Under the pieces are notes generated by a model. That model was given only the letters and a program-made list of their open reading frames with translations, was not told the DNA's origin and did no database searches. The position numbers were made by a program, and so were the translations under genes. From Meridianimarinicoccus zhengii (GTDB taxonomy: Bacteria > Pseudomonadota > Alphaproteobacteria > Rhodobacterales > Rhodobacteraceae), in assembly GCF_003254465.1 (NCBI RefSeq), contig NZ_QDFI01000040.1, positions 1-38,832 on the forward strand: a DNA stretch of 38,832 nt, given 5' to 3'. This document shows, in pieces, positions 2,208-38,832 of the stretch (its first letter is position 1; each line of letters starts with the position of its first letter).

Positions 2208-2659
2208 GCCAGCCCCCCGCGCAGGAAGTCGGCAGCCAGGTCGCGCACGCCGCGTTCGTCCTCGGTCGACAGCCCGAGATACGGACGCTCGGGGATGTCG
2301 ATGTCCACGTCCTCGCCGCCGAACTGGTGGATCGCGGCGTAGACCAGGTTCGATCCGGTCTGCACCTCGGCGGCGGAGGTCAGCGACTGGACGCTGTCCA
2401 GCAGATCGCCCTCGGCCTGCAGGATGGTCTGGCCGGTGCGGCGGGTGGCGCCGTGGCGTTCCGACCAGGGCGCCCAGGGCGTGCCGTCGGGGGCTTCCTT
2501 TTCCTCGGCGATGCGGCGCTTCACGCTGCTTTCCAGCAGCGCGCCGATGGCGTCGGCCAGTCGCAGCCGCCGCTGCGCGACGGATCCCGACCAGCGGGCC
2601 AGACCGTCGAGCGCCTGGTCGAGGCTGCGGCTTTCGAGCGTGTACGCGACGCCGACCAT
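2204..2659 (-). CDS. Phage virion morphogenesis protein (Mu gpG-like)
   Basis: A 151-residue protein of the phage virion morphogenesis family (Mu gpG, P2 gpS-like), which acts in head-tail joining or tail completion. Recognisable segments are TPWAPWSERHGATRRTGQTI (about 60-80), LLDSVQSLTSAAEVQTGSNLVYAAIHQFGG (about 86-115) and the C-terminal IPERPYLGLSTEDERGVRDL; the AAIHQFGG and RPYLGLS elements are hallmarks of the family. The ATG at 2659 shares one base with the stop of gp36 (TGATG); a GTG three bases upstream is an alternative. Confidence 0.9.
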   Translation of the reverse strand: MVGVAYTLESRSLDQALDGLARWSGSVAQRRLRLADAIGALLESSVKRRIAEEKEAPDGTPWAPWSERHGATRRTGQTILQAEGDLLDSVQSLTSAAEVQTGSNLVYAAIHQFGGEDVDIDIPERPYLGLSTEDERGVRDLAADFLRGGLA

Positions 2660-3090
2660 CACAGGCCGTCCAGCTTGTCGCGGGTGAACTGCTTGACCGG
2701 GCCGGTCTGCACGATCGGGCGCGGGCCGTCATGCGCGGGCGGATCGCCGGGTTCGCGCGATACGGGCAGCGCCATGTCGCCTTTCCCGATGCGCTTGAGC
2801 TGCCCGATCGCGTCCTCGTACCGGACGCGGTGTTCTTCCGACCGCACGTCGGCGGTGTTCGCGAGCCGGTAGAGCGCGATGTCGACGCAAAGCTGCGTCA
2901 GCAGGAACGGCACCGGCACGACGGGCGTTTCGTATCGCACGCGCAGGTAGGCGTCGATCTCGTCGGTGGCCTGCTCCAGCGCGCGGTTGATCGCGGCCCC
3001 GGTCTGCGCCGCATCGCCGCCGCGCTCGGCGACGTAGAGCGCGTCGGCCGAGTAGAGCGTCTCGATGTCGTGGCGCGTGGCGTAGGCCAT
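2659..3090 (-). CDS. Mu gp36-like protein (DUF1320)
   Basis: 143 residues; DUF1320 (Mu gp36) is a small virion-assembly protein encoded just after the major head gene cluster and probably forms part of the head-tail connector. The N-terminus AYATRHDIETLYSADALYVA and the core INRALEQATDEIDAYLRVRYETPV followed by LTQLCVDIALYRLA are typical. The ATG at 3090 follows a GGAGAG ribosome-binding site 4-5 bases upstream; the 12 extra upstream codons (Pro-rich) are unlikely to be translated. There is an 87-base gap to gp35. Confidence 0.9.
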   Translation of the reverse strand: MAYATRHDIETLYSADALYVAERGGDAAQTGAAINRALEQATDEIDAYLRVRYETPVVPVPFLLTQLCVDIALYRLANTADVRSEEHRVRYEDAIGQLKRIGKGDMALPVSREPGDPPAHDGPRPIVQTGPVKQFTRDKLDGL

Positions 3091-3177
3091 GGGGCTCTCC
3101 GGTGGGTGCGGGCTCGGCGGGGGCATCGCTGCCCCCGCCTGGTTGACCGGGTCGTGCCCGGCCCTCGCGGCGGGGGG

Positions 3178-3597
3178 TTATTCCGCGTCGGTGGTGTCGG
3201 TTTCGGGGGCGGGGTCGCCGTTGGCGTTGGCCTTCACGTCTTCCCAGACCTCGTCGCGCAGCGCGGCCGTGATCGCCTTGGCGTCATCGGGCAGCGCGGC
3301 GCGCAACGCGCCCAGGTCGGGCGCGCCGGAGGCGATGAACTCGTCCGCCGACAGGTTCGCGATCGCGGCGATGATCCGCTGGCGCAGGTCCAGATCGGCG
3401 CCCTCGGGCGTAGCAATCTTGGCCGCGCCCTCGTCGATGACCGCCAGCATCGGGTCGGCCTCGATCTGCGCCCATTCGCGTGGCGTGAACCGGTCCTCGG
3501 GGAAGGCCGCGGCGGTGGCATCGAACTGTACGCCGCAGCGGAACCGGCGGGTGAGCCTGGCCGCCTTCGCGGCCTTCGACAGGGTGATCGTGCGCAT
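3178..3597 (-). CDS. Mu gp35-like small structural protein
   Basis: 139 residues, placed exactly where Mu gp35 lies, between the major head protein and gp36. The N-terminal part (KAARLTRRFRCGVQF then FTPREWAQIEADPMLAVID) matches the short domain shared by gp35/HI1506-type proteins. A helical middle (LRQRIIAAIANLSADEFI) and an acidic tail (APETDTTDAE) follow. Its role is not well defined; head decoration or connector function has been suggested for relatives. The start has an AAGGGGG ribosome-binding site. Moderate confidence rests on position plus the N-terminal pattern. Confidence 0.65.
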   Translation of the reverse strand: MRTITLSKAAKAARLTRRFRCGVQFDATAAAFPEDRFTPREWAQIEADPMLAVIDEGAAKIATPEGADLDLRQRIIAAIANLSADEFIASGAPDLGALRAALPDDAKAITAALRDEVWEDVKANANGDPAPETDTTDAE

Positions 3598-26893: not shown

Positions 26894-27892
26894 TCAACTC
26901 TCGGGCTTCGGTTCCTCCAGCAGCGCGGCGGCGCTGCGTTCGTCGGTGATGAATGTGCTCGGCCGCAACGACCTCAGCGTCCCGTGCAACATGGTGATCT
27001 TTTCAGGCCCGCCCGAAATCAGCACCTTGTTGGGCACCCGCGCCAGCCGATCCAGCGGCATGGAGATCGCGCGCGCGTTCACGGGATGGTCGATGGGCCG
27101 CCCATCGCGGTCGAGGAAGTTGTAAAGGATATCGCCCACGGCCCCCGCCTCGATCATGGATAGGCGTTCGGCCTCGGACACGTGGCCCAGCCGGTAGGAT
27201 GTCGTCAGGGTCGAGATTCCGCCGCAGGACAGCAGCGCCACGTCGCAGGTCTCGGCCATCTGGAACACCTGCTCCAGCCCGCAATGCTCCAGCAGCGCAT
27301 GCTTGGTGCGCGGCGAATCGACGATGGCCGGCGCGGTGACGAGGAACCCTTCGGCCTGGAACAGTTCCGCAAACTGCCAAGCGAATTCGGCAGGGTTGAA
27401 ACGCCGCGCCTGGCTGATCCCGCCCAGCAGCGACACGACCCGCACGCCGTCAAGCTGGCGGCCTTCCACGAAGGGCAGCATGGCGTGGAGCGTTCGGCCC
27501 CAACCCACGCCCACCGTGATGTTGGGGCGCATGATCTCGCCCAGATGGGCCCCGGCAGCCGCGGCGATCACGCGCGTCGGGTCGCCATCGGGGTCCGAAA
27601 AGGGCGCCACGATGGCGCGGGTCAGCCCGAAGCGGTCTTCCAGCCGCGATTGCAGTTCCGTCAGGGGCGCGAGATCGGACTTGATGCGGATGACCACCTC
27701 GCCCCGGCGACGGGCCTCGGACAGAAGCCGTGTGATCATGATCCGGTTCACGCCCAGTGACTTGGCGACTTCGGACTGGGTCATGCCCTCGATGTAATAG
27801 AGCCACGCCGCCCGGATGCGCGTCTGGCTTTGCGGGTCGCGCGCGCCCCGGCTCTGCGGGATATGGGGGTCCGCGGCGGAATCCTCGGGCAT
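26894..27892 (-). CDS. SorC-family transcriptional regulator
   Basis: 332 residues. An N-terminal HTH (GMTQSEVAKSLGVNRIMITR, about 35-54) is followed by the SorC sugar-binding domain with VGVGWGRTLHAMLPFV, VVSLLGGISQARRFNPAEFA and CDVALLSCGGI. Such regulators respond to phosphorylated sugars. The ATG at 27892 leaves a 32-base gap behind the E2-like gene, so it is the last gene of the leftward operon and probably autoregulated through the TGAACA/TGTTCA sites in the divergent intergenic region. The prophage lies just beyond its stop. Confidence 0.92.
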   Translation of the reverse strand: MPEDSAADPHIPQSRGARDPQSQTRIRAAWLYYIEGMTQSEVAKSLGVNRIMITRLLSEARRRGEVVIRIKSDLAPLTELQSRLEDRFGLTRAIVAPFSDPDGDPTRVIAAAAGAHLGEIMRPNITVGVGWGRTLHAMLPFVEGRQLDGVRVVSLLGGISQARRFNPAEFAWQFAELFQAEGFLVTAPAIVDSPRTKHALLEHCGLEQVFQMAETCDVALLSCGGISTLTTSYRLGHVSEAERLSMIEAGAVGDILYNFLDRDGRPIDHPVNARAISMPLDRLARVPNKVLISGGPEKITMLHGTLRSLRPSTFITDERSAAALLEEPKPES

Positions 27893-27924
27893 GGGTTCGG
27901 TCCTGAAAAGTGTCTGACCGGGGC

Positions 27925-29322
27925 TTATAGCGGCTGCCCGACAATCTTTCCAACCTCTTCGGGGCATTCGATCTGTGGCATGTGGCCGATATGGTCGAAC
28001 AGGTGCAGTCCGACGCGACCCGGCGCGCGCAGGGCGTGCTGCCACGGGATGATGGCGTCGGCCTTGCCCCAGACGATCCGCGCGGGCGGCACCAGCCGGT
28101 CCAGCGCCGCGGTCAGGTCGAAGCCCTGCGTGCCATCGGGAAAGATTGCGTCGGCCAGCGCCGTCTGCGCGGCGCGCAGGGCCGGGTCCGCGCGGGCGTC
28201 CATGGCAAGGCGCGCGTAGCTGTCCGTGATCCGGCGTGGATCGGCGACCAGCGTCCGCAGCCAGGGCGCAAGGCTGTCGGCGCGGGTCGCCCGGCAGATG
28301 CCCGCCAGGGCCGGGCCGTTGACCTGCGGACCCAGCCCTGCCGGGGCGATCAGCGTCAGGGCGGCGATCTGCCGGGGCCGCGTGTCCGCCAGTGCCAGCG
28401 CCAGCGCGCCGCCCAGCGAGTGGCCCACGAGATGCGCCCGCGCGAGCCCGAGATCGTCGAAGGCTGCACGGACCGCAGCGGCAAGCGCCGCGAAATCCGG
28501 CATGGCATCAGGTGCGGACCGGCCATGCCCCGGCAGGTCGATGCGGATCAGCGGGCGGTCGCCCAGATGCGGCTCCAGCGGCGTCCATGACGTCATGTCC
28601 GAACCGAACCCGTGCAGCAGGACCACGGGCAGGCCCGATCCGCCGCCGCGCCGGGACACCGCCAAACTGCCGCTGCGCTGGGGCTGCGCCGGGGTGGCGG
28701 TCGTCAGCAGGGCATCGATATCGGCCCGTTGAACCCGCCCGCGGGGCCCCGAGCCCGCGATGCCTGCCAGATCGATCCCGGCGTCCCGCGCCCGTGCCCG
28801 CGCGGCGGGGGTCGCCCGTGGTCGATCGCCGCATTCCGGATCGGAGTCGCCGGCACGAGGGGCCAAGGCGTCGGCCTGTTCCTGAGGTGCCGCTCCTGCC
28901 CGCGCCAGGGGGGCGTGCGCGCCGCGGTCCGGATGGAGGGGCCCGCCCCGTGCGTCGCGCCGTCCCGCGTCGTCCGCCGCATGTGCGCTTGCCCGCCCGT
29001 CTTCCCCAGGCGCCCCGGACCCGGCATTGCCGGGCGCCGGGGCCTCCGACGCACCGATCTCTGCCGGGGACGGGCCGACCGCCTCATCCGCCGCGTAGAG
29101 CCACGCGACCGGCTTGCCGATGGGCACTTCGGTCCCTTCCGCGGCACGGTGGTGCAGGATGCCCGCGGCTTGGGCCTCGACCTCCATAGCGGCCTTGTCG
29201 GTTTCGATGTCGAACAGCGGGTCGCCCTTGGCGACCTGTGTCCCCTCGGCCACGTGCCACGCGACGATGCGACCCCGGTCCATGTCCATGTCGACCTTGG
29301 GCATGATGACCTCGACGGGCAT
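27925..29322 (-). CDS. acoC: E2-like lipoyl/alpha-beta-hydrolase protein (AcoC type)
   Basis: 465 residues in three parts: a lipoyl domain (about 1-78, Lys43 in DIETDKAAME), a Pro/Ala-rich linker, an E3/E1-binding-like segment (ATPAARARARDAGIDLAGIA, about 170-206), and an alpha/beta-hydrolase fold (LPVVLLHGFGSDMTSW; Ser302 in VGHSLGG, Asp422 in GKADAI, His447 in HIGHMPQ). This replaces the usual acyltransferase domain, as in acetoin dehydrogenase E2. It would take the acyl group from E1 via lipoamide to CoA; how the hydrolase domain helps is not settled. It is longer than Pseudomonas AcoC (about 370) because of the added binding segment. Overlaps acoB by one base. Confidence 0.88.
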   Translation of the reverse strand: MPVEVIMPKVDMDMDRGRIVAWHVAEGTQVAKGDPLFDIETDKAAMEVEAQAAGILHHRAAEGTEVPIGKPVAWLYAADEAVGPSPAEIGASEAPAPGNAGSGAPGEDGRASAHAADDAGRRDARGGPLHPDRGAHAPLARAGAAPQEQADALAPRAGDSDPECGDRPRATPAARARARDAGIDLAGIAGSGPRGRVQRADIDALLTTATPAQPQRSGSLAVSRRGGGSGLPVVLLHGFGSDMTSWTPLEPHLGDRPLIRIDLPGHGRSAPDAMPDFAALAAAVRAAFDDLGLARAHLVGHSLGGALALALADTRPRQIAALTLIAPAGLGPQVNGPALAGICRATRADSLAPWLRTLVADPRRITDSYARLAMDARADPALRAAQTALADAIFPDGTQGFDLTAALDRLVPPARIVWGKADAIIPWQHALRAPGRVGLHLFDHIGHMPQIECPEEVGKIVGQPL

Positions 29323-30329
29323 CAGACGCGGCCCTTCGCCAGATCCCGCGCCGCCGAAAGGATACCCGGCACCTGCGGCACCGCGGCCTTTTCCAGTTCC
29401 GGGTTGTAGGGGATCGGGCATTCCGCCCCCCCGAGCCGGATGATCGGCGAATCAAGGTAATCGAACGCGTCGCTTTCGGCGACCATCGCGCTGATCTCGG
29501 CGCCGATCCCAAGCGTTTTCACGGCCTCGTGGACGATCATCAGCCGCCCGGTCTTCCGCGCGCTGCCCAGGATCGTGTCGCGGTCGATGGGCCGGACGCT
29601 GCGCAGGTCGATCACCTCCGCGTCGATCCCGTCTGCCTCCATCTCGCGGGCCGCCTCCAGCGCCTTGTGCACCATGATGCCGCTCGCGACGATGGTCAGG
29701 TCGCGCCCGGTCCGCCGGATCGCGGCGGTGCCGATGGGGGTCGTGTAGTGCCCTTCCGGCACCGGCCCCTTCATCTTGTACAGAATCTTGTGCTCGAAGA
29801 TCATCACCGGGTCGGGATCGTCGAGGGCTGCCAGCAACAGGCCCTTGGCGTCCTCCGGCGTGGTGGGCTGCACCACCTTCAGCCCCGGCACATGGGCCAG
29901 CCATGCCTCCAGGCTTTGCGAATGCTGCGCCGCCGCCCCGGTGCCCGACCCCGCCGGGAACCGCATCACCAGTGGCACGGACACGGCCCCGCCCAGCATG
30001 TAGCGCAGCTTGGCCGCCTGGTTGACGATCTGCTCCATCGCCAGCGTGGCGAAATCCGAGAACTGGAATTCGAAGATGGGCCGCAGCCCGGTCAGCGCGG
30101 CCCCTACGGCAACCCCCGCGCCGCCCAGTTCGGATATCGGCGTGTCCATCACCCGGTCGGTGCCGTACTTGTGCACCAGGTCCCCGGTCACCTGGAACGC
30201 GCCGCCATAGACGCCGATATCCTCGCCCATCAGCACGACGCGCGGATCGCGGTCCAGGGCGATGTCCATCGCCTCGCGCAGCGCCTCGGCGTAAGACAAT
30301 TCGCGGACGGCTTCAGTCACGGCGTTCAT
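29322..30329 (-). CDS. acoB: Acetoin-dehydrogenase-type E1 beta subunit
   Basis: 335 residues, transketolase-like beta chain of a TPP enzyme: [60 protein letters not shown], then [20 protein letters not shown] and the C-terminal [20 protein letters not shown]. With E1 alpha it forms the heterotetramer that cleaves the methyl-ketone substrate and loads the acyl group on lipoamide. The sequence does not itself say whether acetoin, pyruvate or a ketose phosphate is the substrate. ATG at 30329 has AAAGGA upstream; the 28-base gap to acoA is short. Confidence 0.93.
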
Positions 30330-30357
30330 GCGGGCTGTCCTTTGGTCTCCGTGCCGG

Positions 30358-31371
30358 TCATGCCGCCGCCGGGTTGTAAACGTCGCGCGCGACATCGGCG
30401 GGATCGGGGTCGGCACTGTCCGCGGCAAAGGCGATGGCGTCGGCGATCACCTGCTCGGTTTCCGCCTCGATGTCCGCCACGTCCGCATCGGTCAGCACGC
30501 CGTGATCCACCAGCAGCCGCGCGAAGGCCGGGATCGGGTCGCGCGCCATCCAGTCGGCGATTTCCTCCTTTGTGCGATACCGGTTGCGGTCCGACTTGGA
30601 ATGACCGCGCCAGCGGTAGGTGACGTTCTCCACAAGGCTGGGTCCGTCCCCCGCCCGCGCCCGCGCGACAGCCGCGTCCACCGCCTCGGCCACCGCCGAG
30701 AAATCGTTACCGTCCACGGTCACGCCCGGCATGGCATATGCCGCCGCGCGTTCGGCGATGTTCTTGACGGCCGTCGAGCGTTCGGTCGACGTGGACATGC
30801 CGTACTTGTTGTTCTCGCACACGAAGACCACCGGCAGCTTCCAGACCGCGGCCATGTTCAGCGCCTCGTGGAACGCGCCCTCGTTATTGGCCCCGTCCCC
30901 GAAGAAGCACACCGTCACGGCACCCGTGCCCAGCCGCTTGGCCGACAGCGCGGCGCCGACGGCGATGGGCAGCCCGCCGCCCACGATGCCGTTCGCGCCC
31001 AGATTGCCTTTGGTCGGGTCGGCGATATGCATGGACCCGCCCCGCCCCCGGCAATAGCCGGTTTCCTTGCCGAAGAACTCCGCGAACATGCGCCCCAGAT
31101 CGGCGCCCTTGGCCACGCAATGCCCGTGCCCGCGATGGGTCGACGTGATCTTGTCGTCATCCGACAGCGCCATGCAGGAGGCCACCGCCGACGCTTCCTG
31201 CCCGATGGACAGGTGCATCGTGCCGTGGATCAGGCCGCGGGTATAGCTGTTCTCGGCCCCTTCCTCGAACTTGCGGATCAGGTACATCTTGCGCAGCGCC
31301 GCGCGCAGGGTGTCGGCGTCATAGGCGCGGATGGCATAGGGCAGGTTGCCGTCGCGGTATCCGTCAGGCAT
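30358..31371 (-). CDS. acoA: Acetoin-dehydrogenase-type E1 alpha subunit
   Basis: 337 residues. TPP-binding motif from [13 protein letters not shown] (158-170) to VCENN (about 184-188), conserved [13 protein letters not shown] and [12 protein letters not shown] typical of E1 alpha. ATG at 31371 lies 7 bases after AAGGAG; another Met 6 codons upstream is less supported. It overlaps the DRL-like gene by 8 bases, binding the oxidoreductase and TPP enzyme into one transcript. No E3 (dihydrolipoamide dehydrogenase) gene is in the window, so a housekeeping E3 must serve. Confidence 0.93.
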
Positions 31372-32695
31372 GGACGGGCTCCTTGCCATGGATCGCCGCG
31401 TCCTGCCGCGCGCGCAATTCCACGATGCGGGACGCGGGCAGGCGGGTGTTCGCCGCGGTGATGAGATCGCCCTTCGCGATGGGCGCGGTCACGACAGCCC
31501 CGGTCAACAGCCCCGCCGGATGCGCGCCCATGGCGCGGGCGCGGGGGGCGGTCATGGCCCAGGCGCGATAGGTGTATTCGCCGATCTGGTCGAGCACCTC
31601 GCCGGGTTTCAGGGCACGCTTGGCCACCGCCGCAACCTCGGCCACGGGGCGATCCAGCGGAACCATGTCCGCCTTGCCATAAAGGACGGCGCGCGCGCAG
31701 GTCAGCGGTACCTCCAGCGAGGTCAGGTGATAGGGCCGCAGGAACGTGAAATAGGGTCCGTCGCCCATCTTCAGGTCGGTCATGCGCTCGCGCACGCGGG
31801 GGTGCTCCGCCTCCACGATGCAGAACACGCCGGGCGCCACGCCTTGCCCGACCGAGAAGTCCACCCGGCCTGCGCCCGACAGGACACCGCCATCGGCCTG
31901 CGGCACCAGCACCTTCGCCAGTTCCTTGGGCCCGGCGGCAGGCCCGTGCATCCCGTCGCAATCGGGGATCAGGCCTGTGGCATTGGCGATGGCGCACATT
32001 TCCACCATGGTCTTGGACCCGTCCACGAATTCGACCAGCAGACGGGGGTTCATGTGCCGCGCCCTTGCTTCGGCTTCGTAGGCATCGGGGGTGGCGTCGA
32101 TGTTCAGCGGGTTGTTCTTGCCCTTGCCCGCGCAGACAATCCGGTGCCCCATGGCCGAGGCGAACTCGATCAGCTCCATGCAGGCGGACGGCTCGTCCCC
32201 CGCGCCAAGGCTGTAGACCACGCCCAGCCGGTCCGCCTCCCGCCGCAGGTAGGCGCCGATTGTCACGTCGGCTTCCACGTTCATCATCACGAGATGCTTG
32301 CCGGCCTCCATCGCGCGCAGGCCGATGTCGGCGCCGACCGACGGCACCCCGGTCGCATCGATCATCACGTCGATCAACCCGCAGCCGATCAGCGCGTCGG
32401 CGCTATCGGCGATGGCGGTGCGGCCCTGTTCGATGGCGGCGGCCACGGCGTCGGGCGTGTTCGCGTCGGTGCTGTGGCCGGGCTCGCGGTGCGCGATCTC
32501 GACGGCGCGATGCGCCGCTGCGGGATCGATTTCGGATATCGCCGCAAGCTCGACCCCGTCCATCATCGCCGCGCGGGTGACGATATCGGTCCCCATCTCG
32601 CCCGCGCCCACGAGCCCGATGCGGACCGGGCGCCCGGCATCGGCGCGCGCCGCCAGGTCCCGTGCAAGCCCGGTCAGTGCGATATTCGATGCCAT
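31364..32695 (-). CDS. NAD(P) oxidoreductase, homoserine-dehydrogenase-like with SAF domain (DRL-like family)
   Basis: 443 residues. Rossmann motif RIGLVGAGEMG (Gly30, Gly32, Gly35), then GVPSVGADIGLRAMEAGKHL and VMMNVEADVTIGAYLRREAD; the C-terminus is a SAF domain (GAVVTAPIAKGDLITAANTR). This is the COG4091 family. One member, DRL of Brucella, replaces DXP reductoisomerase in isoprenoid synthesis, but most members have unknown substrates. Here it heads an operon with acetoin-type E1/E2 genes, so a catabolic role on a sugar phosphate is more likely. ATG at 32695 has AAGGGG upstream. Which substrate it uses cannot be told from the sequence. Confidence 0.85.
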   Translation of the reverse strand: MASNIALTGLARDLAARADAGRPVRIGLVGAGEMGTDIVTRAAMMDGVELAAISEIDPAAAHRAVEIAHREPGHSTDANTPDAVAAAIEQGRTAIADSADALIGCGLIDVMIDATGVPSVGADIGLRAMEAGKHLVMMNVEADVTIGAYLRREADRLGVVYSLGAGDEPSACMELIEFASAMGHRIVCAGKGKNNPLNIDATPDAYEAEARARHMNPRLLVEFVDGSKTMVEMCAIANATGLIPDCDGMHGPAAGPKELAKVLVPQADGGVLSGAGRVDFSVGQGVAPGVFCIVEAEHPRVRERMTDLKMGDGPYFTFLRPYHLTSLEVPLTCARAVLYGKADMVPLDRPVAEVAAVAKRALKPGEVLDQIGEYTYRAWAMTAPRARAMGAHPAGLLTGAVVTAPIAKGDLITAANTRLPASRIVELRARQDAAIHGKEPVHA

Positions 32696-32726
32696 GCTGG
32701 TACGCCCCTTCGTGCCGTGTGTCGCG

Positions 32727-32755
32727 ATGATTGTGAACTTTCGTTGCAGTGTCAA
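32727..32755 (-). promoter_or_regulatory. Probable promoter of the oxidoreductase-aco operon
   Basis: On the minus strand a perfect TTGACA (32750-32755) is separated by 17 bases from AATCAT (32727-32732, four of six consensus positions), upstream of the ATG at 32695. A TGAACT half-site (32734-32739) lies inside the spacer and TGTTCA (32762-32767) just upstream, so SorC binding could control it directly. Confidence 0.6.
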
Positions 32756-32904
32756 ATCATTTGTTCAAGCCAGTGGGTGCATCCACATTATTTACTTGTC
32801 ACATTTTGCCGCATTGCGGCATGGAATTGTGTGACTGCGCATCATTATTCTGTTGACACACAGGGGCATGTGAACAACGGTTGAGATGAACAATCAAATG
32901 TTCA
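32734..32904. promoter_or_regulatory. Array of probable SorC operators in the divergent region
   Basis: Half-sites: TGAACT 32734-32739, TGTTCA 32762-32767, TGAACA 32871-32876, TGAACA 32887-32892 and TGTTCA 32899-32904. The last two form an inverted repeat with a 6-base spacer. A separate perfect 7-1-7 palindrome (TGCCGCA T TGCGGCA) lies at 32807-32821 and may bind another regulator. A TTGACA at 32853-32858 could serve the rightward operon, but no good -10 follows. The region is A+T-rich for this genome. Confidence 0.6.
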
Positions 32905-32978
32905 CGGGATCATGACCCGCCCGCGCGCCGGACGATGTGGCCGAAGGACGGGCAGGCAATGTCAACTGGGAGGATACG

Positions 32979-34532
32979 ATGGGTAAGGCTGGATCACTTT
33001 CGCGGCGTTCGTTTCTGAAATCCACCTCTGCGGCGGGGTTTGCCGCGGCGGGGGGCGGATTCGCGCTGCCCGCGCTGGCGCAGGCGGGGCTTCCGGACCC
33101 GCAATCGGTGCTCGACGGTATCGCGATCTCGAAATACGTCCGCGCGGATTACCGCGACCTCTATGGCATGTCCGACGACAAGCCGATCTGGGACAATTCC
33201 AAGGACTGGATCCGCACCGTGGACTGGGAAAAGGTCCGCAGCGAGCTTTCCGGCACAACCGTGCGGTTCGCCGTGGGTGCCGCCGACGCTGAATCCGCGG
33301 CCGAAGGTCTTGCCCCGTTCGAAGCGCTCTCGGGCATTTCGGTCGAACTGGTCCCGATCCCGGACGACAGCATGTACGACAAGGTGCTGGCCGAGTTCAT
33401 CTCCGGCAATGCGTCGTTCGACGCGCTGCAGTTCTTCTCGCCGTGGATGGGGGATTTCGCGGCACCGGGGTTCCTGTACCCGCTCGACGAGTTCGCCGAG
33501 AAATGGTCGTTGCCGCTGGATGACTTCTACGACACCTACCGTCTGAACTACGGCTTCTTCAACGGCAAGATGTACGGTATCCCGTTCGATTGCGACGTGC
33601 AGATGGTGCACCTGCGCAAGGGCTACATGGAGCAGATCCTTGGCGGGCCGGTGGACCGGGTGACGTCCGTGCCGACATACGACGAACTGATCCGCGTGTC
33701 GGGTGAACTGAACCGGATCGAACCGGGCGTGTCCGGCGTGGGCCTGATGGCGGCGCCGGGATTCTGGTCCACCTACACGTGGGAACATATCGCGGCGCAG
33801 GCCGGCATGATGCTGTTCGACGAGAACTGGGAGCCGATCTTCAACGGCGACGCAGGCATGAAGGGGCTGGAAATCATGCTGGCCCTGTCCAAGAACGCCA
33901 ACGAAGGCCACGCGGGCGCCGGCTGGCCGGAAAACCGCGCGGCATGGCTGGGCGGACAGGTCGCCACCAATATCAGCTGGCAGGACAGCGGCACCCAGGC
34001 GATGCGCCCGGACCAGAGCCAGATCGTGGACGATTTCGTCACCATCTACGAGCCGCGGATCGAGGGCGGGCGGTTCGCGCCGCCGAACATCGCCGGGTCC
34101 ACGTCCTGCGTGTCGGCCTCGGCCCAGAATCCGGAAGGCGCGTTCCTGATGCTCGGGTTCCTCACGACCGCGTCGATCATGGCTATGAACGAGGCGAACG
34201 CGAACGGCGTGGCGCCGGGCTACAAGTCCGTGCTGACCAACCCGAACCTTCAGGCCGTGTCCCAGCCCGCCAAGGTCTGGTCGGAAAGCCTCGAACATGC
34301 GTGGTGCGCGCCGCGCCTGCCGGGGGCCTTCCCGATCGAGCAAGCCATCGGCAACGAGATCAACCGCGCCGTCGTCGGCCAGATCACCGCGAAGGAGGCG
34401 CTGGACAACGCCGCGTCCGCGGTGCGCCGGATCATGGAATCGAACGGCTTCTACCAGGGCCGTGACCCAGTGGACTACGCGGCCGCCGCGCCGGGGCTCT
34501 ACGTGGGCGAGGGGCGTCCGCTGCCCTTCTGA
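32979..34532 (+). CDS. ABC sugar-type solute-binding protein, Tat-exported
   Basis: 517 residues of the family 1 extracellular binding proteins. The signal has a twin-arginine motif SRRSFLKST (about 8-16) followed by a hydrophobic Ala/Gly run and LPALAQAG cleavage region. Core segments include ALQFFSPWMGDFAAPGFLYP and YGIPFDCDVQMVHLRKGYME (open/close domains). Tat export suggests folding before transport. ATG at 32979 follows GGGAGG by 5 bases; upstream reading is not supported. It leads the transporter operon, so its ligand is probably the substrate of the divergently encoded enzymes. Confidence 0.93.
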   Translation: MGKAGSLSRRSFLKSTSAAGFAAAGGGFALPALAQAGLPDPQSVLDGIAISKYVRADYRDLYGMSDDKPIWDNSKDWIRTVDWEKVRSELSGTTVRFAVGAADAESAAEGLAPFEALSGISVELVPIPDDSMYDKVLAEFISGNASFDALQFFSPWMGDFAAPGFLYPLDEFAEKWSLPLDDFYDTYRLNYGFFNGKMYGIPFDCDVQMVHLRKGYMEQILGGPVDRVTSVPTYDELIRVSGELNRIEPGVSGVGLMAAPGFWSTYTWEHIAAQAGMMLFDENWEPIFNGDAGMKGLEIMLALSKNANEGHAGAGWPENRAAWLGGQVATNISWQDSGTQAMRPDQSQIVDDFVTIYEPRIEGGRFAPPNIAGSTSCVSASAQNPEGAFLMLGFLTTASIMAMNEANANGVAPGYKSVLTNPNLQAVSQPAKVWSESLEHAWCAPRLPGAFPIEQAIGNEINRAVVGQITAKEALDNAASAVRRIMESNGFYQGRDPVDYAAAAPGLYVGEGRPLPF

Positions 34533-34571
34533 TCCCCGCAGACGACGACACGACAACGACAGGATATCCGC

Positions 34572-35516
34572 ATGGGCGAGACTTCCCTGTCGGGCACCGG
34601 GGCGGCGCGATCCGCCCCGGCACGTCCGGCCACCAGCCGCCTTCGCCGCCGCCCGCGCTGGCTGAAGACGGCGTTCCCCTATCTGCTGGTGGCACCGGCC
34701 GTCATCTACCTGATGCTGATCACGCTCTATCCCGGCATCTACGCGATCATCCAGAGCTTTTACGCCGTCAAGTTCGGGCCATGGCAGCCCGTGGGCTTTG
34801 CCAATTACGTCCGGCTCTGGGGCGACTACCAGTTCTGGGGTGCGCTGTGGAACACGCTGGTGATCGGGTCCATCGCACTGACACTGCAATGCGTGCTGGC
34901 GCTGCTGCTCGCGTTCTTCGCCTATCGCGATCCGTGGGTGCGCGGCTGGCGGATCGTGTTCCTGCTGCCGATGCTGTTCATGCCCTCGGCGGTGGCGTTC
35001 ATCTTCAAGCTGTCGTTTCTCGACGCCCGCGTGGTGTCGGACCTGCTGATCCGTGTCGGACTGATCGACGGCAATCTCGCCATCCAGTCTTCGGTCTGGA
35101 TGAGCCGGGGCCTGCTGATCCTTGCCGACGTGTGGCAATGGACGCCGTTCCTGTTCATCATCTTCGTCGCCGCCCTTCAGGGCCAGGACGAGGAGGTCGA
35201 GGAGGCCGCGCGGCTCGACGGTGCGTCATGGCCCGCGATCTTCTGGAACATATCCCTGCCGATGATGAAGCCGGTGATCGCCGTAGCGCTGATCCTGCGC
35301 GGCATCGACATCACCACCATGTTCACCAACGTCTTCATCATCACCAAGGGCGGCCCGGCCTTCGGCACCGAAACCATCAGCTATTTCATCTACCGCACGG
35401 GGTTCCGGTTCTTCGACTTCGGCTATGCCTCGGCGGCGTCGGTGATCATGCTGATCCTCACCATCCTGATCGCGCAATTCGTCGTGAAACGCGCCTTCGT
35501 GTCGGCACGGAGCTGA
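34572..35516 (+). CDS. ABC permease (MalF-type)
   Basis: 314 residues, about six membrane helices (AFPYLLVAPAVIYLMLITLY near 35; LWNTLVIGSIALTLQCVLAL near 95; others to the C-terminus). The cytoplasmic EAA loop is EEAARLDGASWPAIFWNISL (about 212-231), which contacts the ATPase. The N-terminus carries a basic RLRRRPRWLK anchor. ATG at 34572 follows AGGA; a 39-base gap separates it from the binding protein gene. Confidence 0.94.
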   Translation: MGETSLSGTGAARSAPARPATSRLRRRPRWLKTAFPYLLVAPAVIYLMLITLYPGIYAIIQSFYAVKFGPWQPVGFANYVRLWGDYQFWGALWNTLVIGSIALTLQCVLALLLAFFAYRDPWVRGWRIVFLLPMLFMPSAVAFIFKLSFLDARVVSDLLIRVGLIDGNLAIQSSVWMSRGLLILADVWQWTPFLFIIFVAALQGQDEEVEEAARLDGASWPAIFWNISLPMMKPVIAVALILRGIDITTMFTNVFIITKGGPAFGTETISYFIYRTGFRFFDFGYASAASVIMLILTILIAQFVVKRAFVSARS

Positions 35517-35519
35517 GCC

Positions 35520-36365
35520 ATGGCCTCGATGCGCAAGAAATCCCGCGGCGACAACCTGGTGCTGCGCTATGCCATCCTCGGGGCCTGGGCGCTGGTTTGC
35601 CTGCTGCCGGTGCTGTGGTTCCTGTCCATCGGCCTGCGCCCGCGGACTGAAATCATCACCCCCCAGCCGATCTACTGGCCGACCTTCTCGCTCGATGCGT
35701 GGCACATGATCTGGTCGGACTGGCCGATGGCGCGCTACCTGCGCAACTCGGTGCTGGCGATCATCGGGTCGGTGCTGATCGATCTGGTGCTGGCGATCCC
35801 GGCGGCCTATTCGCTGTCGCGCTACACCTATCGCGGGCGGGACGATATCGGGTTCTACATCCTGTCCACGCGGATGATGGCGCCCGCCATCGTGGCGATC
35901 CCGATCTTCTTCCTGTTCCGCAACGCGGGGCTTCTGGACACGATCTGGGCCTTGATGCTGATCTACGCCGCGATCAACCTGTCCTTCGTGACGTGGATCA
36001 TCCGGTCCTACATGCTCGACATTCCCAAGGAACTGGAGGACGCGGCCCGCACCGACGGCGCCAGCGACCTGCGCATCCTGTGGGAAATCATCATCCCCGC
36101 GATTCTGCCCGGCATCATCACCGCGTCGGTCATCGCCATGATCTTCGCGATCAACGAATTCCTGTTCACGCTGCTCATCGCCTCCACCTCGCAGGCCTAC
36201 ACCATGTCGGTCGCGCTGGCGAATTTCACCGGCGGCTCGGACGGGGTGATCTACAACGCCATCGCACTTGTGGCCTTCCTCGCCTTCGTGCCGGTGTTCA
36301 TCGTGGTGGTCGCCATCCAGAAACACCTGAGCCGCGGTCTGACCATGGGCGCGGTAAAAGGCTGA
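35520..36365 (+). CDS. ABC permease (MalG-type)
   Basis: 281 residues, about six membrane helices, with the EAA loop LEDAARTDGASDLRILWEII (about 176-195). It pairs with the preceding permease to form the channel. The ATG at 35520 is 3 bases after the previous stop, so translation is coupled. The C-terminus KHLSRGLTMGAVKG is typical of the family. Confidence 0.94.
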   Translation: MASMRKKSRGDNLVLRYAILGAWALVCLLPVLWFLSIGLRPRTEIITPQPIYWPTFSLDAWHMIWSDWPMARYLRNSVLAIIGSVLIDLVLAIPAAYSLSRYTYRGRDDIGFYILSTRMMAPAIVAIPIFFLFRNAGLLDTIWALMLIYAAINLSFVTWIIRSYMLDIPKELEDAARTDGASDLRILWEIIIPAILPGIITASVIAMIFAINEFLFTLLIASTSQAYTMSVALANFTGGSDGVIYNAIALVAFLAFVPVFIVVVAIQKHLSRGLTMGAVKG

Positions 36366-36458
36366 CACGCCGAACGCGCAGCGGGGCGAGTCTTGCTGCG
36401 CCGTTGGCATCACAACCACCAAGCCGCCGAACGCGGCACGACAAGGACAAGAACGCCC

Positions 36459-37508
36459 ATGGCACGGATCGAGCTGGCCGACATACAGAAGAAATTCGGA
36501 CTGGTCTGGGGCGTGCGCGATGTGAACATCGACATCGCCGATGAGGAATTCATCGTCTTCCTCGGCCCTTCGGGCTGCGGCAAGACCACCACGATGCGCA
36601 TGATCGCGGGGCTGGAAGAGCCGACCGAGGGCGAGATCCGCATGGATGGCGAGGTGATGAACGACATCGACGCGCGCGACCGCGACGTGGCGATGGTGTT
36701 CCAAGGCTACGCGCTTTACCCCAACATGACGATCTACGAAAACATCCGCTTTCCGCTGCGGATGCGGGGCGTGCCGCGGGCGGAACAGGACGCGCTGGTG
36801 CGGCAGGCCGCGGGGCTGGTGGAACTGACTGATTACCTCGACCGCAAGCCGCAGGCCCTGTCGGGCGGGCAACGGCAGCGTGCGGCGCTGGCCCGCGCCA
36901 TCGTGCGCCAGCCGCAGGTTTTCCTGATGGACGAGCCGCTTTCCAACCTCGACGCCAAGCTGCGGCAGGCGATGCGGGTGCAGATCAAGCATATCCAGCG
37001 CCAGTTGCGCATCACCACCGTCTACGTGACCCACGACCAGATCGAGGCGATGACGCTCGCCGACCGGATCGTCATCATGCAGTCGGGCGCGGTTCAGCAG
37101 ATCGGCACGCCCGACCAGATCTACAACGATCCGGCGAACACATTCGTGGCGGGTTTCATCGGTGCGCCGCCCATGAACCTGATCGCCGGGCGGCTGGCGG
37201 ACGGCACCTTCACCGCGCCCGGTCTGCGCGTCACGGGCCTGCCAGAACGGCGCGGCGGAAAGGTGACGCTCGGCATCCGCCCCGAGGATTGCCACGTCAC
37301 CGTGGGCGCGGATCACCTGCAGGGCATCGTCTTCGGCGTGGAGCCGACGGGCGAGACGACCTACCTGACCGTGAAGGCCGGCGAGAAGCTGGTGGAGGTC
37401 AAGGCCGACCGGGATTTCCGCGCGGATCTGGACACGCCCGTCGCCGTGGGCTTCGATACGACCCGGCTATACCTGTTCGACACGGCCAGCGGCGACCGGC
37501 TGCGTTGA
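36459..37508 (+). CDS. ABC sugar importer ATPase (UgpC/MsmK-type)
   Basis: 349 residues. Walker A GPSGCGKT (36-43), Q-loop FQGYALYP (about 81-88), signature LSGGQ (134-138), Walker B VFLMDEP (154-160), H-loop VTHDQIEA. The C-terminal TOBE/regulatory domain (LGIRPEDCHV and VEPTGETTYLTVKAGEK) matches sugar importers. ATG at 36459 is chosen because the upstream stretch is basic and unlike the family. The 93-base gap before it is larger than the others in the operon but shows no clear terminator. Confidence 0.95.
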   Translation: MARIELADIQKKFGLVWGVRDVNIDIADEEFIVFLGPSGCGKTTTMRMIAGLEEPTEGEIRMDGEVMNDIDARDRDVAMVFQGYALYPNMTIYENIRFPLRMRGVPRAEQDALVRQAAGLVELTDYLDRKPQALSGGQRQRAALARAIVRQPQVFLMDEPLSNLDAKLRQAMRVQIKHIQRQLRITTVYVTHDQIEAMTLADRIVIMQSGAVQQIGTPDQIYNDPANTFVAGFIGAPPMNLIAGRLADGTFTAPGLRVTGLPERRGGKVTLGIRPEDCHVTVGADHLQGIVFGVEPTGETTYLTVKAGEKLVEVKADRDFRADLDTPVAVGFDTTRLYLFDTASGDRLR

Positions 37509-37536
37509 GGACTGCCAGCCGCGGAGAGGAGGGACC

Positions 37537-38493
37537 ATGACATTCGACTACACCTCGATGGGGTTCTACACGTTCGACGCGCTCTGCCGCCCCGTCACCG
37601 ACCTGCCGCCGGGCGGGGGCACGTTCTTCGTGGACGACTTCGCGCTGGCGGTGTCCGGGGCGGCCGGGTCGGCGGCCATCGTGGCGGCCAAGCACGGGCT
37701 GCGGGTGCAGGCCGTGGGCGGCGTGGGCCATGACCTGATGGGCGACTGGGTGCTGCGGCGGCTGGACGATTTCGGGGTGGACCGGGGGATGATGCAGCGC
37801 TGCGACGGCTTCACCACCTCATCCAGCATCGTCACGACCCGCCCCGATGGCGCGCGCCCCGCGCTGCACAAACGCGGTGCGACCGCCGGGTTCTACATCG
37901 ACGATACGCAGGCCGACAGGGTGCTGGATACGAAAATCCTGCATGTCGGCGGCGTCGGGCTGATGGACGCCATGGACCGCGGGCGCAATGCAGAACTGTT
38001 GCAGGCGGCGCGCGCGCGCGGTGCCACCACCACGCTCGATGTCTTCGCCTCCACCGCCGACGATCTGCCGCTGGTCCGCCCGCTCCTCGCCCATACCGAC
38101 TTTTTCATGCCCTCGGAGGAAGAGGCGATGGCCCTGTCCGGCCTGACGGATTTCGAGGATATCGCTTCCTTCCTGCTGGATCAGGGCGTGGGGGCCGTGA
38201 TCCTGACGCTGGGCGAAAAGGGGGCGATGTACCGCGACCGGGACGGGCAGCGCATCGACCTGCCCGCCTATGCGGTGGACGTCGTGTGCACCTGCGGCTG
38301 CGGGGACTGCTTCAACGCGGGCTTCGCCACCGGGCTGCATCTGGGCCGCCCGATCGCGGACTGCATCCGGATGGGCCAGGCGGCGTCGGCGCAGAACGCC
38401 ACCGGGCTCGGATCGCAGGCCGGGGTCGTCGATCTGGACCACACGCTCAAGTTCATGGCGGAGACACCGACGCGGTGCTATGCTGACGCGTGA
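37537..38493 (+). CDS. PfkB/ribokinase-family sugar kinase
   Basis: 318 residues. Motif 1 region FALAVSGAAGSAAIVAAKHG (about 35-54) and motif 2 VVCTCGCGDCFNAGF (249-263) with the catalytic Asp257 in GCGD. It phosphorylates a sugar or polyol with ATP. The unusual Cys-rich C-T-C-G-C-G-D in place of D-T-T-G-A-G-D keeps the Gly and Asp of the anion hole. As the last characterised gene of the transporter operon it should act on the imported substrate, which would supply the phosphorylated ligand for SorC. Confidence 0.9.
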   Translation: MTFDYTSMGFYTFDALCRPVTDLPPGGGTFFVDDFALAVSGAAGSAAIVAAKHGLRVQAVGGVGHDLMGDWVLRRLDDFGVDRGMMQRCDGFTTSSSIVTTRPDGARPALHKRGATAGFYIDDTQADRVLDTKILHVGGVGLMDAMDRGRNAELLQAARARGATTTLDVFASTADDLPLVRPLLAHTDFFMPSEEEAMALSGLTDFEDIASFLLDQGVGAVILTLGEKGAMYRDRDGQRIDLPAYAVDVVCTCGCGDCFNAGFATGLHLGRPIADCIRMGQAASAQNATGLGSQAGVVDLDHTLKFMAETPTRCYADA

Positions 38494-38832
38494 TGACGCA
38501 ATCCCGCGAGCCGCTTGACGAATCCATGCCCCAGACATCCGCCAGCCCCGCCATCGTCCGGGCCCTCAAGGGTCCGTTCCGCGACATCCTGCGAGGGATG
38601 ACCAGCATGGCGGGCGCGACGGAGGACATGCTCCAACCCGCCGCACGCGCGCTGCCCGGCCCCCTGCGGGACGCCGTCAAACAGGCGCTGCGCACGCTCG
38701 AAGGGCAGGGCGACCGGCTGCTGACCCCCGACATCACGCAGGACGATATCCGCCGCGCCGCGGCCTTCCTGCGCGGCGACGTGCACGGGCGCGGCGACGC
38801 GGCCGGCTGCGCGCGCGTGCTGGCCTTCGCCT
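38493..38832 (+). CDS. Unknown protein, C-terminus beyond the window
   Basis: ATG at 38493 shares a base with the kinase stop (TGATG). The open frame reads MTQSREPLDESMPQTSASPA and continues through AIVRALKGPFRDILRGMTSM, helical and Pro-poor later, to the last base. No family recognised. Tight coupling to the kinase suggests a related role, but only 113 codons are visible. Confidence 0.6.
   Translation, partial: MTQSREPLDESMPQTSASPAIVRALKGPFRDILRGMTSMAGATEDMLQPAARALPGPLRDAVKQALRTLEGQGDRLLTPDITQDDIRRAAAFLRGDVHGRGDAAGCARVLAFA

Follow-up and report, generated by a model that had tools for sequence, protein, structure and literature searches.

The DXR-II enzyme of Brucella, also called DRL, which converts 1-deoxy-D-xylulose 5-phosphate (DXP) to 2-C-methyl-D-erythritol 4-phosphate (MEP), belongs to a family of 53 described members. 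The 2013 paper on this family treated DXR-II as a biosynthetic enzyme, found its redundancy puzzling and asked why bacteria with the canonical enzyme DXR-I keep it; neither catabol nor acetoin turned up in a term search of the main text (PMC3847144). Acetoin dehydrogenase (AcoABC) is characterized by a two-subunit E1 component dependent on thiamine diphosphate (ThDP), an E2 component with an α/β-hydrolase domain and the cleavage of acyloins. The glucitol/sorbitol phosphotransferase system (PTS; GutM-SrlAEB operons) imports polyols, and its usual partner is sorbitol-6-phosphate dehydrogenase. In the methylthioadenosine (MTA)-isoprenoid shunt of Rhodospirillum rubrum, a salvage product is said to feed into DXP, which proceeds to isoprenoids.

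Features of these systems meet in a divergon (two divergent operons) at the right end of a 38,832-base contig, referred to here as the window, from the 4.6-Mb genome of Meridianimarinicoccus zhengii. One operon encodes a DXR-II, both E1 subunits, E2 and a SorC-family regulator; the other encodes a sugar importer and a sugar kinase. The two operons probably serve the catabolism of 2-C-methyl-D-erythritol or of a closely similar 2-methyltetrol. In comparison with known DXR-IIs, the enzyme of the window shares the key active-site residues but lies within a sugar-uptake and E1/E2 operon, has NAD-type residues at the cofactor site and occurs in a host that keeps DXR-I. Unlike that of AcoABC, the E1 is tied to DXR-II, stands apart from presumed acetoin E1s in a tree and is adjoined by a sugar kinase, an importer and SorC; some relatives have a classical E2. 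DXP, directed to isoprenoids in R. rubrum, is predicted to be degraded here.

The oxidoreductase and its dehydrogenase partner

The oxidoreductase was 62.0% identical to Brucella DRL (3upl) and kept G121, E174, F178, K191, K193, T229, H250, R320, and Y322; V351 was also present in a first, smaller alignment. The domain of canonical DXR-I (PF13288) was absent from it. True DXR-IIs are distinguished from the look-alike clades DLO1 and DLO2 by a tree together with residues including G121, T229, H250, R320, and V351, while K191, K193, T229, H250, and R320 are described as diagnostic or active-site residues (PMC3847144). In a larger alignment, these latter five were conserved across all DXR-II rows that have letters at the sites, the one exception being L158, a damaged copy in a metagenome-assembled genome. 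Other signature sites varied among DXR-II rows: position 121, for example, is A in four second copies, and various residues occur at position 351. T229 was kept in none of the 26 DLO loci. A tree, which had been proposed as a check in an earlier note made from the letters of the window alone, was built by a quick method and kept 93 of the 139 extracted rows after removal of near-copies, fragments and the majority of DLO rows; long branches were flagged. It placed the window enzyme together with Brucella DRL inside an 80-row branch (support 98) and all DLO rows outside, with weak support for the deep split between DXR-II and DLO. In a set of 384 further genomes, sampled evenly across the class, a match of 50–59% was found in three, two of them of one genus, and other matches did not exceed 42%.

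The linkage of DXR-II to E1 was followed in a scan of a genome collection, from which the best 80 of 547 related stretches were taken; a few of these loci share a genome or species. DXR-II was regarded as E1-linked if E1α or E1β (>150 bits) was located within 5 kb. Since 72 of the 80 fetched loci were E1-linked, the linkage is not due to chance. In E1-linked loci, DXR-II is located directly before E1α. The eight loci without linkage were L037 (contig edge), L049, L050, L051, and L103–L106. No E1 linkage was detected in the 26 DLO loci within flanks of 1.5 kb. E1α matches at 1e-50 were found in 253 plasmid records, 33 of them with 60–80% identity and 220 with less than 60%; 32 of the 33 had a DXR-II (54% or more) within about 170 bases. 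Among the best 38 plasmid records with DXR-II, the gene was E1-adjacent in 32, the others being five Phyllobacterium records and Pararhizobium A13. In Phyllobacterium (L051, L167), DXR-II without E1 lies directly behind a CUT2 sugar importer and an aldose 1-epimerase. The pNGR234b copy of Sinorhizobium fredii NGR234, a strain listed among those with DXR-II (PMC3847144), lies in a cluster of the type described here, as judged by strain name and not by accession.

The earlier note had named the E1/E2 components acetoin-type. The name suits E2, whose α/β-hydrolase domain brings it above the cut-off of the acetoin-dehydrogenase E2 model NF011457 (358 vs. 307 bits). The names acoA and acoB are approximate, since both E1 subunits score highest against pyruvate dehydrogenase (PDH)-type models, E1α below and E1β above the cut-off. 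E1β was used for the tree, as the E1α of Priestia is truncated where the retrieved stretch ends. In this tree of 34 rows, built by a careful method (four rows were long and neither key support was starred), the E1s of DXR-II clusters, the Priestia E1 and that of Rhizobium SSA_523, which lacks DXR-II, fell on one side of a branch (91/80). Together with an adjoining SorC-linked E1 of C. difficile, the DXR-II-cluster E1s were separated (93/83, unstarred, long branches) from the E1s of Enterococcus and Acinetobacter, which we read as acetoin-type although their records do not name them so. Two other E1s of the host also fell apart from the group. The E2 model and the PDH-type E1 models might suggest an ordinary dehydrogenase for acetoin or a 2-oxo acid that happens to neighbor an unrelated sugar system. 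This explanation hardly agrees with the separation from the presumed acetoin E1s and from the other host E1s or with the DXR-II found beside E1α in 32 of the 33 plasmid records, and we consider it extremely improbable.

Group-specific residues of DXR-II-cluster E1α include H55, T57, and K265. When aligned to human PDH E1α, H55 corresponds to R, T57 to F of RGFCH and K265 to M of GHSMSD, positions which we take to lie near the PDH active site and in its entrance loop. Such residues may fit a more polar, phosphorylated substrate. E3 is encoded in the operon of three records (S. meliloti Rm41, Agrobacterium CFBP7129, and Shinella), and lipoyl synthase in that of the first two. The same kind of E1/E2 also occurs with SorC and another PTS type, galactitol-type in L177 (2696–14342); in L184 (12995–25894), a C. 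difficile record, the IIA/IIB/IIC set is untyped and accompanied by a class II aldolase. No DXR-II was found in L177 or in the annotation of L184.

Redundancy with DXR-I and the cofactor site

The host genome also encodes DXR-I, a check for which had likewise been proposed beforehand, and has two strong matches to PF13292 (dxs-type). The window DXR-II is therefore dispensable for making MEP and isoprenoids in the host. For a survey of DXR-I, 50 loci were chosen from the 80, including all unlinked ones, and 49 genomes were analyzed. DXR-I was found in 29 of them, all with an E1-linked DXR-II. Counting second copies, 45 of the chosen genomes had an E1-linked DXR-II, accompanied by DXR-I in 29, by a second DXR-II in 12 and by neither in four. 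None of the four chosen genomes with only unlinked DXR-II had DXR-I. IspG was present in all 12 genomes tested of the 20 without DXR-I. In a sample of the host's family, DXR-II matches at 1e-100 were obtained in 17 of 295 genomes, the host included. All ten genomes with only E1-linked DXR-II had DXR-I (one of these matches, in G588, being a short piece), compared to none of the five genomes whose only DXR-II lacked E1 within 1.5 kb (Fisher p 0.0003); at least four of the 16 genomes other than the host were already in the first set. The remaining genome, which lacked DXR-I, had two copies, one of them E1-linked and the other at the edge of a contig. According to the family paper, DXR-II also occurs in Finegoldia (activity confirmed) and Anaerococcus, where no MEP pathway was found, as well as in the mevalonate-using Chloroflexus (PMC3847144).

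These data bear on an anabolic alternative, in which E1 makes DXP and DXR-II makes MEP, boosting isoprenoid synthesis. Unlinked DXR-II does replace DXR-I in several genomes, and E. coli mutants in the PDH E1 gene aceE allow DXP production (PMC3424233). However, such a set leaves no place for E2, E3, the importer, the kinase and SorC, the host already has dxs-type genes and DXR-I, and E1-linked copies occur where DXR-I is kept; the alternative thus appears very improbable.

Aminobacter ciceronei and Phyllobacterium onerii have no DXR-I; between their E1-linked and unlinked DXR-IIs, identity is 99.1% and 98.9%, respectively. The E1-linked copy very likely interconverts MEP and DXP, because at least one of two near-identical enzymes should make MEP in the absence of DXR-I. 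In Oceaniradius, one copy lies E1-linked in a cluster of this type and the second lies next to dxs. That DXR-II acts here as an ordinary polyol-phosphate dehydrogenase on erythritol phosphate or a similar tetritol phosphate would be compatible with PTS-linked copies in Firmicutes without E1 nearby and with the relationship of the wider family to homoserine dehydrogenase (PMC3847144). Nevertheless, the residues that mark MEP-forming enzymes are kept, and near-identical copies, at least one of which should make MEP, occur in genomes with IspG but no DXR-I, so we attach almost no weight to this explanation.

The cofactor site, positions 54–57, reads S54-A55-R56-R57 in Brucella and S-E-I-D in the window. 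At the end of the second Rossmann strand, an acidic residue usually indicates NAD and an arginine NADP. Comparison was extended to 83 E1-linked loci (the window, 72 of the 80 and ten others), and all 83 enzymes had D or E at position 55 and no R at position 56. By these residues, E1-linked DXR-IIs are predicted to be of the NAD type, in contrast to the NADPH dependence of the known biosynthetic enzyme. Ten of the 27 other rows with letters at the site had R56, including Brucella, four second copies of Mesorhizobium and the dxs-adjacent copy. R56 occurred in none of the 91 copies that are E1-linked or adjacent to an importer or PTS (Priestia counted as E1-linked) and in 10 of the 16 with neither, and it requires at least five changes on the tree. 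In the family sample, all 11 E1-linked copies had the acidic residue with I or L at 56; this pair occurred in none of the copies of the five unlinked genomes but was present in the contig-edge copy. The idea that all unlinked DXR-IIs are NADPH-type was rejected, as six copies with neither E1 nor importer (L103–L106, L150, and L151) lack R56.

Uptake modules and the proposed pathway

Neighbors within 12 kb were counted in the 83 E1-linked loci. They comprised PfkB kinases (34 loci), ATP-binding cassette (ABC) importers of CUT1 (22), CUT2 (21) and PhnU type (11), and a glucitol-type PTS (20), the latter coupled here to DXR-II and E1/E2 and not, as in GutM-SrlAEB operons, to sorbitol-6-phosphate dehydrogenase. 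SorC was present in 53 loci and some importer in 66. The PTS parts GutM, IIC, IIB, IIA, and HPr-EI were recognized by Pfam, and IIC, IIB, and HPr-EI also passed NCBIfam cut-offs. Some of the ABC genes may be chance neighbors, and the PhnU-type set may be unrelated to the pathway; in L088 this set occurs together with proteins of the metallo-beta-lactamase fold and the SurE family. In a plasmid of the Firmicute Priestia, the cluster consists of E1/E2/E3, SorC, an MFS carrier, a second SorC, DXR-II, and an FGGY kinase. Listeria innocua, L. salivarius, and Enterococcus raffinosus combine DXR-II with a glucitol-type PTS and SorC-type genes. Varied import and phosphorylation modules beside the same DXR-II/E1 core are the strongest sign of a catabolic pathway, and the glucitol-type PTS, which stands in for the ABC/PfkB module, points to a polyol substrate.

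The DXR-II-like gene of L. salivarius (L114) has S at position 174 and F at 322 and is accompanied, besides the PTS, by fructose-6-phosphate aldolase and transketolase; this set perhaps handles a different branched polyol. A GlpD-like FAD dehydrogenase and a Zn-dependent dehydrogenase often join the cluster (L116 18675–21251; L117 16152–18855), the former in 17 of the 83 loci, and perhaps widen the substrate range. Another branched polyol, such as 2-methylthreitol or apiitol, might accordingly be the substrate in general, with DXR-II rearranging its phosphate to another ketose phosphate from which E1/E2 yields acetyl-CoA or glycolyl-CoA. Both gene sets just mentioned would suit such a pathway. 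Against it, the substrate residues, T229 among them, agree with those of Brucella DRL, and an ordinary ketose phosphate would presumably enter the pentose phosphate pathway with no need for dedicated E1/E2; we regard this variant as quite unlikely.

Uptake of 1-deoxy-D-xylulose also deserves mention. The kinase would make DXP, E1/E2 would degrade it and DXR-II would divert some of it to MEP for isoprenoids. DXP is the shared node of both schemes, one E1-free cluster has a XylB-like kinase (below the XylB cut-off) beside DXR-II, and xylulokinase of E. coli can phosphorylate deoxyxylulose. Yet DXR-II, which would be dispensable for growth on this sugar, stands directly before E1α in E1-linked loci; of the 45 genomes with E1-linked copies, 29 have DXR-I and 12 a second DXR-II; glucitol-type PTSs import polyols, and a NAD-type site suits oxidation. 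Deoxyxylulose is thus unlikely. The glucitol-type PTS and the need for DXR-II favor methylerythritol, which explains both DXR-II and E1/E2, since deoxyxylulose requires no DXR-II and an ordinary ketose phosphate no E1/E2. The plain acetoin operon, the anabolic operon and the erythritol-type dehydrogenase were set aside on the points given against each.

In the proposed methylerythritol route, the ABC importer would take up the polyol, a branched five-carbon compound, and the kinase would phosphorylate it to MEP; in relatives, the glucitol-type PTS would perform both steps together. DXR-II would then convert MEP to DXP by an NAD-linked rearranging oxidation, the reverse of the first committed step in making isoprenoids. 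DXP is an acyloin (CH3-CO-CHOH-R), and E1/E2 is predicted to cleave its C2–C3 bond in the manner of acetoin dehydrogenase, with acetyl-CoA, NADH, and glyceraldehyde 3-phosphate as products, a cleavage that would mirror the DXP synthase reaction. The DXP produced with aceE mutants of E. coli (PMC3424233) also speaks for this route. E3 would be supplied by the operon in some relatives and from elsewhere in the genome in the host. SorC would sense a sugar phosphate and control both operons. The earlier note had likewise suggested that MEP is oxidized to DXP and then split, and the DXR-II signature, the DXR-I of the host, the linkage, the occurrence of DXR-I in step with linkage, the uptake modules and the NAD-type residues all speak for it.

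Several results weigh against this reading. Specificity of the kinase and importer is not readable from sequence. The equilibrium of the DXR reaction is thought to favor MEP, and the oxidation of MEP would therefore need pull from the cleavage of DXP. The importer, PfkB and SorC were all missing in 14 of the 83 loci in the DNA examined, which was short in several. In the stretches examined, no E1 was found in L. innocua, E. raffinosus, and L. salivarius, nor in a Pararhizobium plasmid (L168 7497–16476) carrying DXR-II, the XylB-like kinase, SorC, a CUT2 importer, and an SDR. Conversely, Rhizobium SSA_523, the exception among the 33 plasmid records, has E1/E2/SorC and a galactitol-type PTS but no DXR-II in 10-kb flanks. 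In four of the 49 surveyed genomes, no DXR other than the E1-linked DXR-II was found, and this enzyme may take part in making isoprenoids there. Support for the deep separation of DXR-II from DLO was only 56. NAD-type residues also occurred in 14 of 24 copies that are not E1-linked, eight of them beside an importer or PTS, so the pattern is not exclusive, and a test of cofactor residue against linkage by independent pairs yielded two pairs on starred branches (p 1), too few pairs.

The novelty would lie in the combination: apart from two small partners without a family, all the proteins fall into known families. An account of such a pathway was not found in open-licence literature on DXR-II, on catabolism of methylerythritol, deoxyxylulose or methyltetrols or on the Listeria genes, among the matches listed, and it may have been published elsewhere. 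We know of no earlier PDH-type complex that cleaves a sugar phosphate. It is conceivable, though short of probable, that DXR-II originated, or survives chiefly, as an NAD-linked enzyme of catabolism in a widespread pathway for methylerythritol and related 2-methyltetrols, that it repeatedly took the place of DXR-I in isoprenoid synthesis, switching to R56, and that E1/E2 is the first sugar-phosphate-cleaving complex of the PDH type. If true, the route would be a new food pathway and would account for the retention, in many bacteria, of an isoprenoid enzyme that seems redundant; the known reactions of PDH-type complexes would be extended to the cleavage of sugar phosphates. The question of redundancy would be answered by a catabolic role, which is directly testable. 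The 2-methyltetrols include plant products and tetrols of isoprene aerosols. The latter arise from atmospheric oxidation of isoprene (PMC12177631), and their consumption by bacteria, if true, would be linked to the global isoprene carbon cycle.

Gene layout and regulation

All ten genes were found in the order and on the strands given in the earlier note, as two divergent operons with one shared intergenic region (Table 1). The start codons of DXR-II, E1β, E2, SorC, and the binding protein were chosen inside longer mechanical open reading frames (ORFs), and the ATGs were checked. The twin-arginine leader of the binding protein agrees with the Tat-type importer named in that note. No NCBIfam model scored above its cut-off for the PfkB kinase. 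The plus-strand genes had been listed as ending with the kinase, and in this respect the list is incomplete, since a further ORF starts at 38490 and is cut by the contig end. Its frame is continued on contig C54, whose end shares 32 exact bases with that of the window; C54 then carries a further conserved small gene of the group fam5. The ORF had 30–49% identity to a stretch in 13 fetched loci and was weakly similar (E 0.003) to a protein of another group, fam50, in L116. Small conserved proteins without family accompany the pathway (window 38490–38831; contig C54 (L186) 2441–3515). Members of fam5 were located within 12 kb in 49 of the 83 E1-linked loci, and those scanned had no Pfam family over the cut-off.

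Table 1. Features of the divergon in the window of M. zhengii
Feature	Position	Strand	Evidence
SorC-family regulator with sugar-binding domain	26894..27892	-	PF04198, 168 bits
E2: lipoyl, E3-binding and alpha/beta-hydrolase domains	27925..29322	-	PF00364, PF02817, PF12697
E1 beta	29322..30329	-	PF02779 + PF02780
E1 alpha, ThDP dehydrogenase complex, predicted DXP-cleaving	30358..31389	-	PF00676, 309 bits
DXR-II (DRL) oxidoreductase, predicted NAD-dependent MEP-to-DXP oxidoreductase	31364..32695	-	PF21135 DRL_cat, 224 bits vs. cut-off 27
Inverted repeat TGAACA-N6-TGTTCA, candidate SorC operator	32887..32904	.	exact site, divergent promoter region
Sugar-binding protein, CUT1 type, twin-arginine leader SRRSFLK	32979..34532	+	PF01547, 93 bits
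ABC permease 1	34572..35516	+	PF00528
ABC permease 2	35520..36365	+	PF00528
ABC ATPase, UgpC/MalK type	36393..37508	+	PF00005 + MalK OB fold
PfkB-family sugar kinase, predicted phosphorylation of imported polyol	37537..38493	+	PF00294, 132 bits
Start of small conserved gene, cut by contig end	38490..38831	+	ORF continues off contig

The divergent intergenic region (about 32696–32978) contains an 18-bp inverted repeat with 6-bp arms and a 6-bp spacer. In a comparison of 76 regions upstream of DXR-II, the half-sites TGAAC/GTTCA were enriched approximately threefold (167 vs. 54 ± 7 in shuffles); the regions are related, and the enrichment hence reflects conservation rather than independent origin. 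The whole inverted repeat occurred in only seven of the 76 regions, vs. a mean of 0.15 in shuffles. The part of the window at about 1–22460 is occupied by a Mu-like prophage with transposase, portal, terminase, gpT head protein, protease, F-like, and baseplate proteins.

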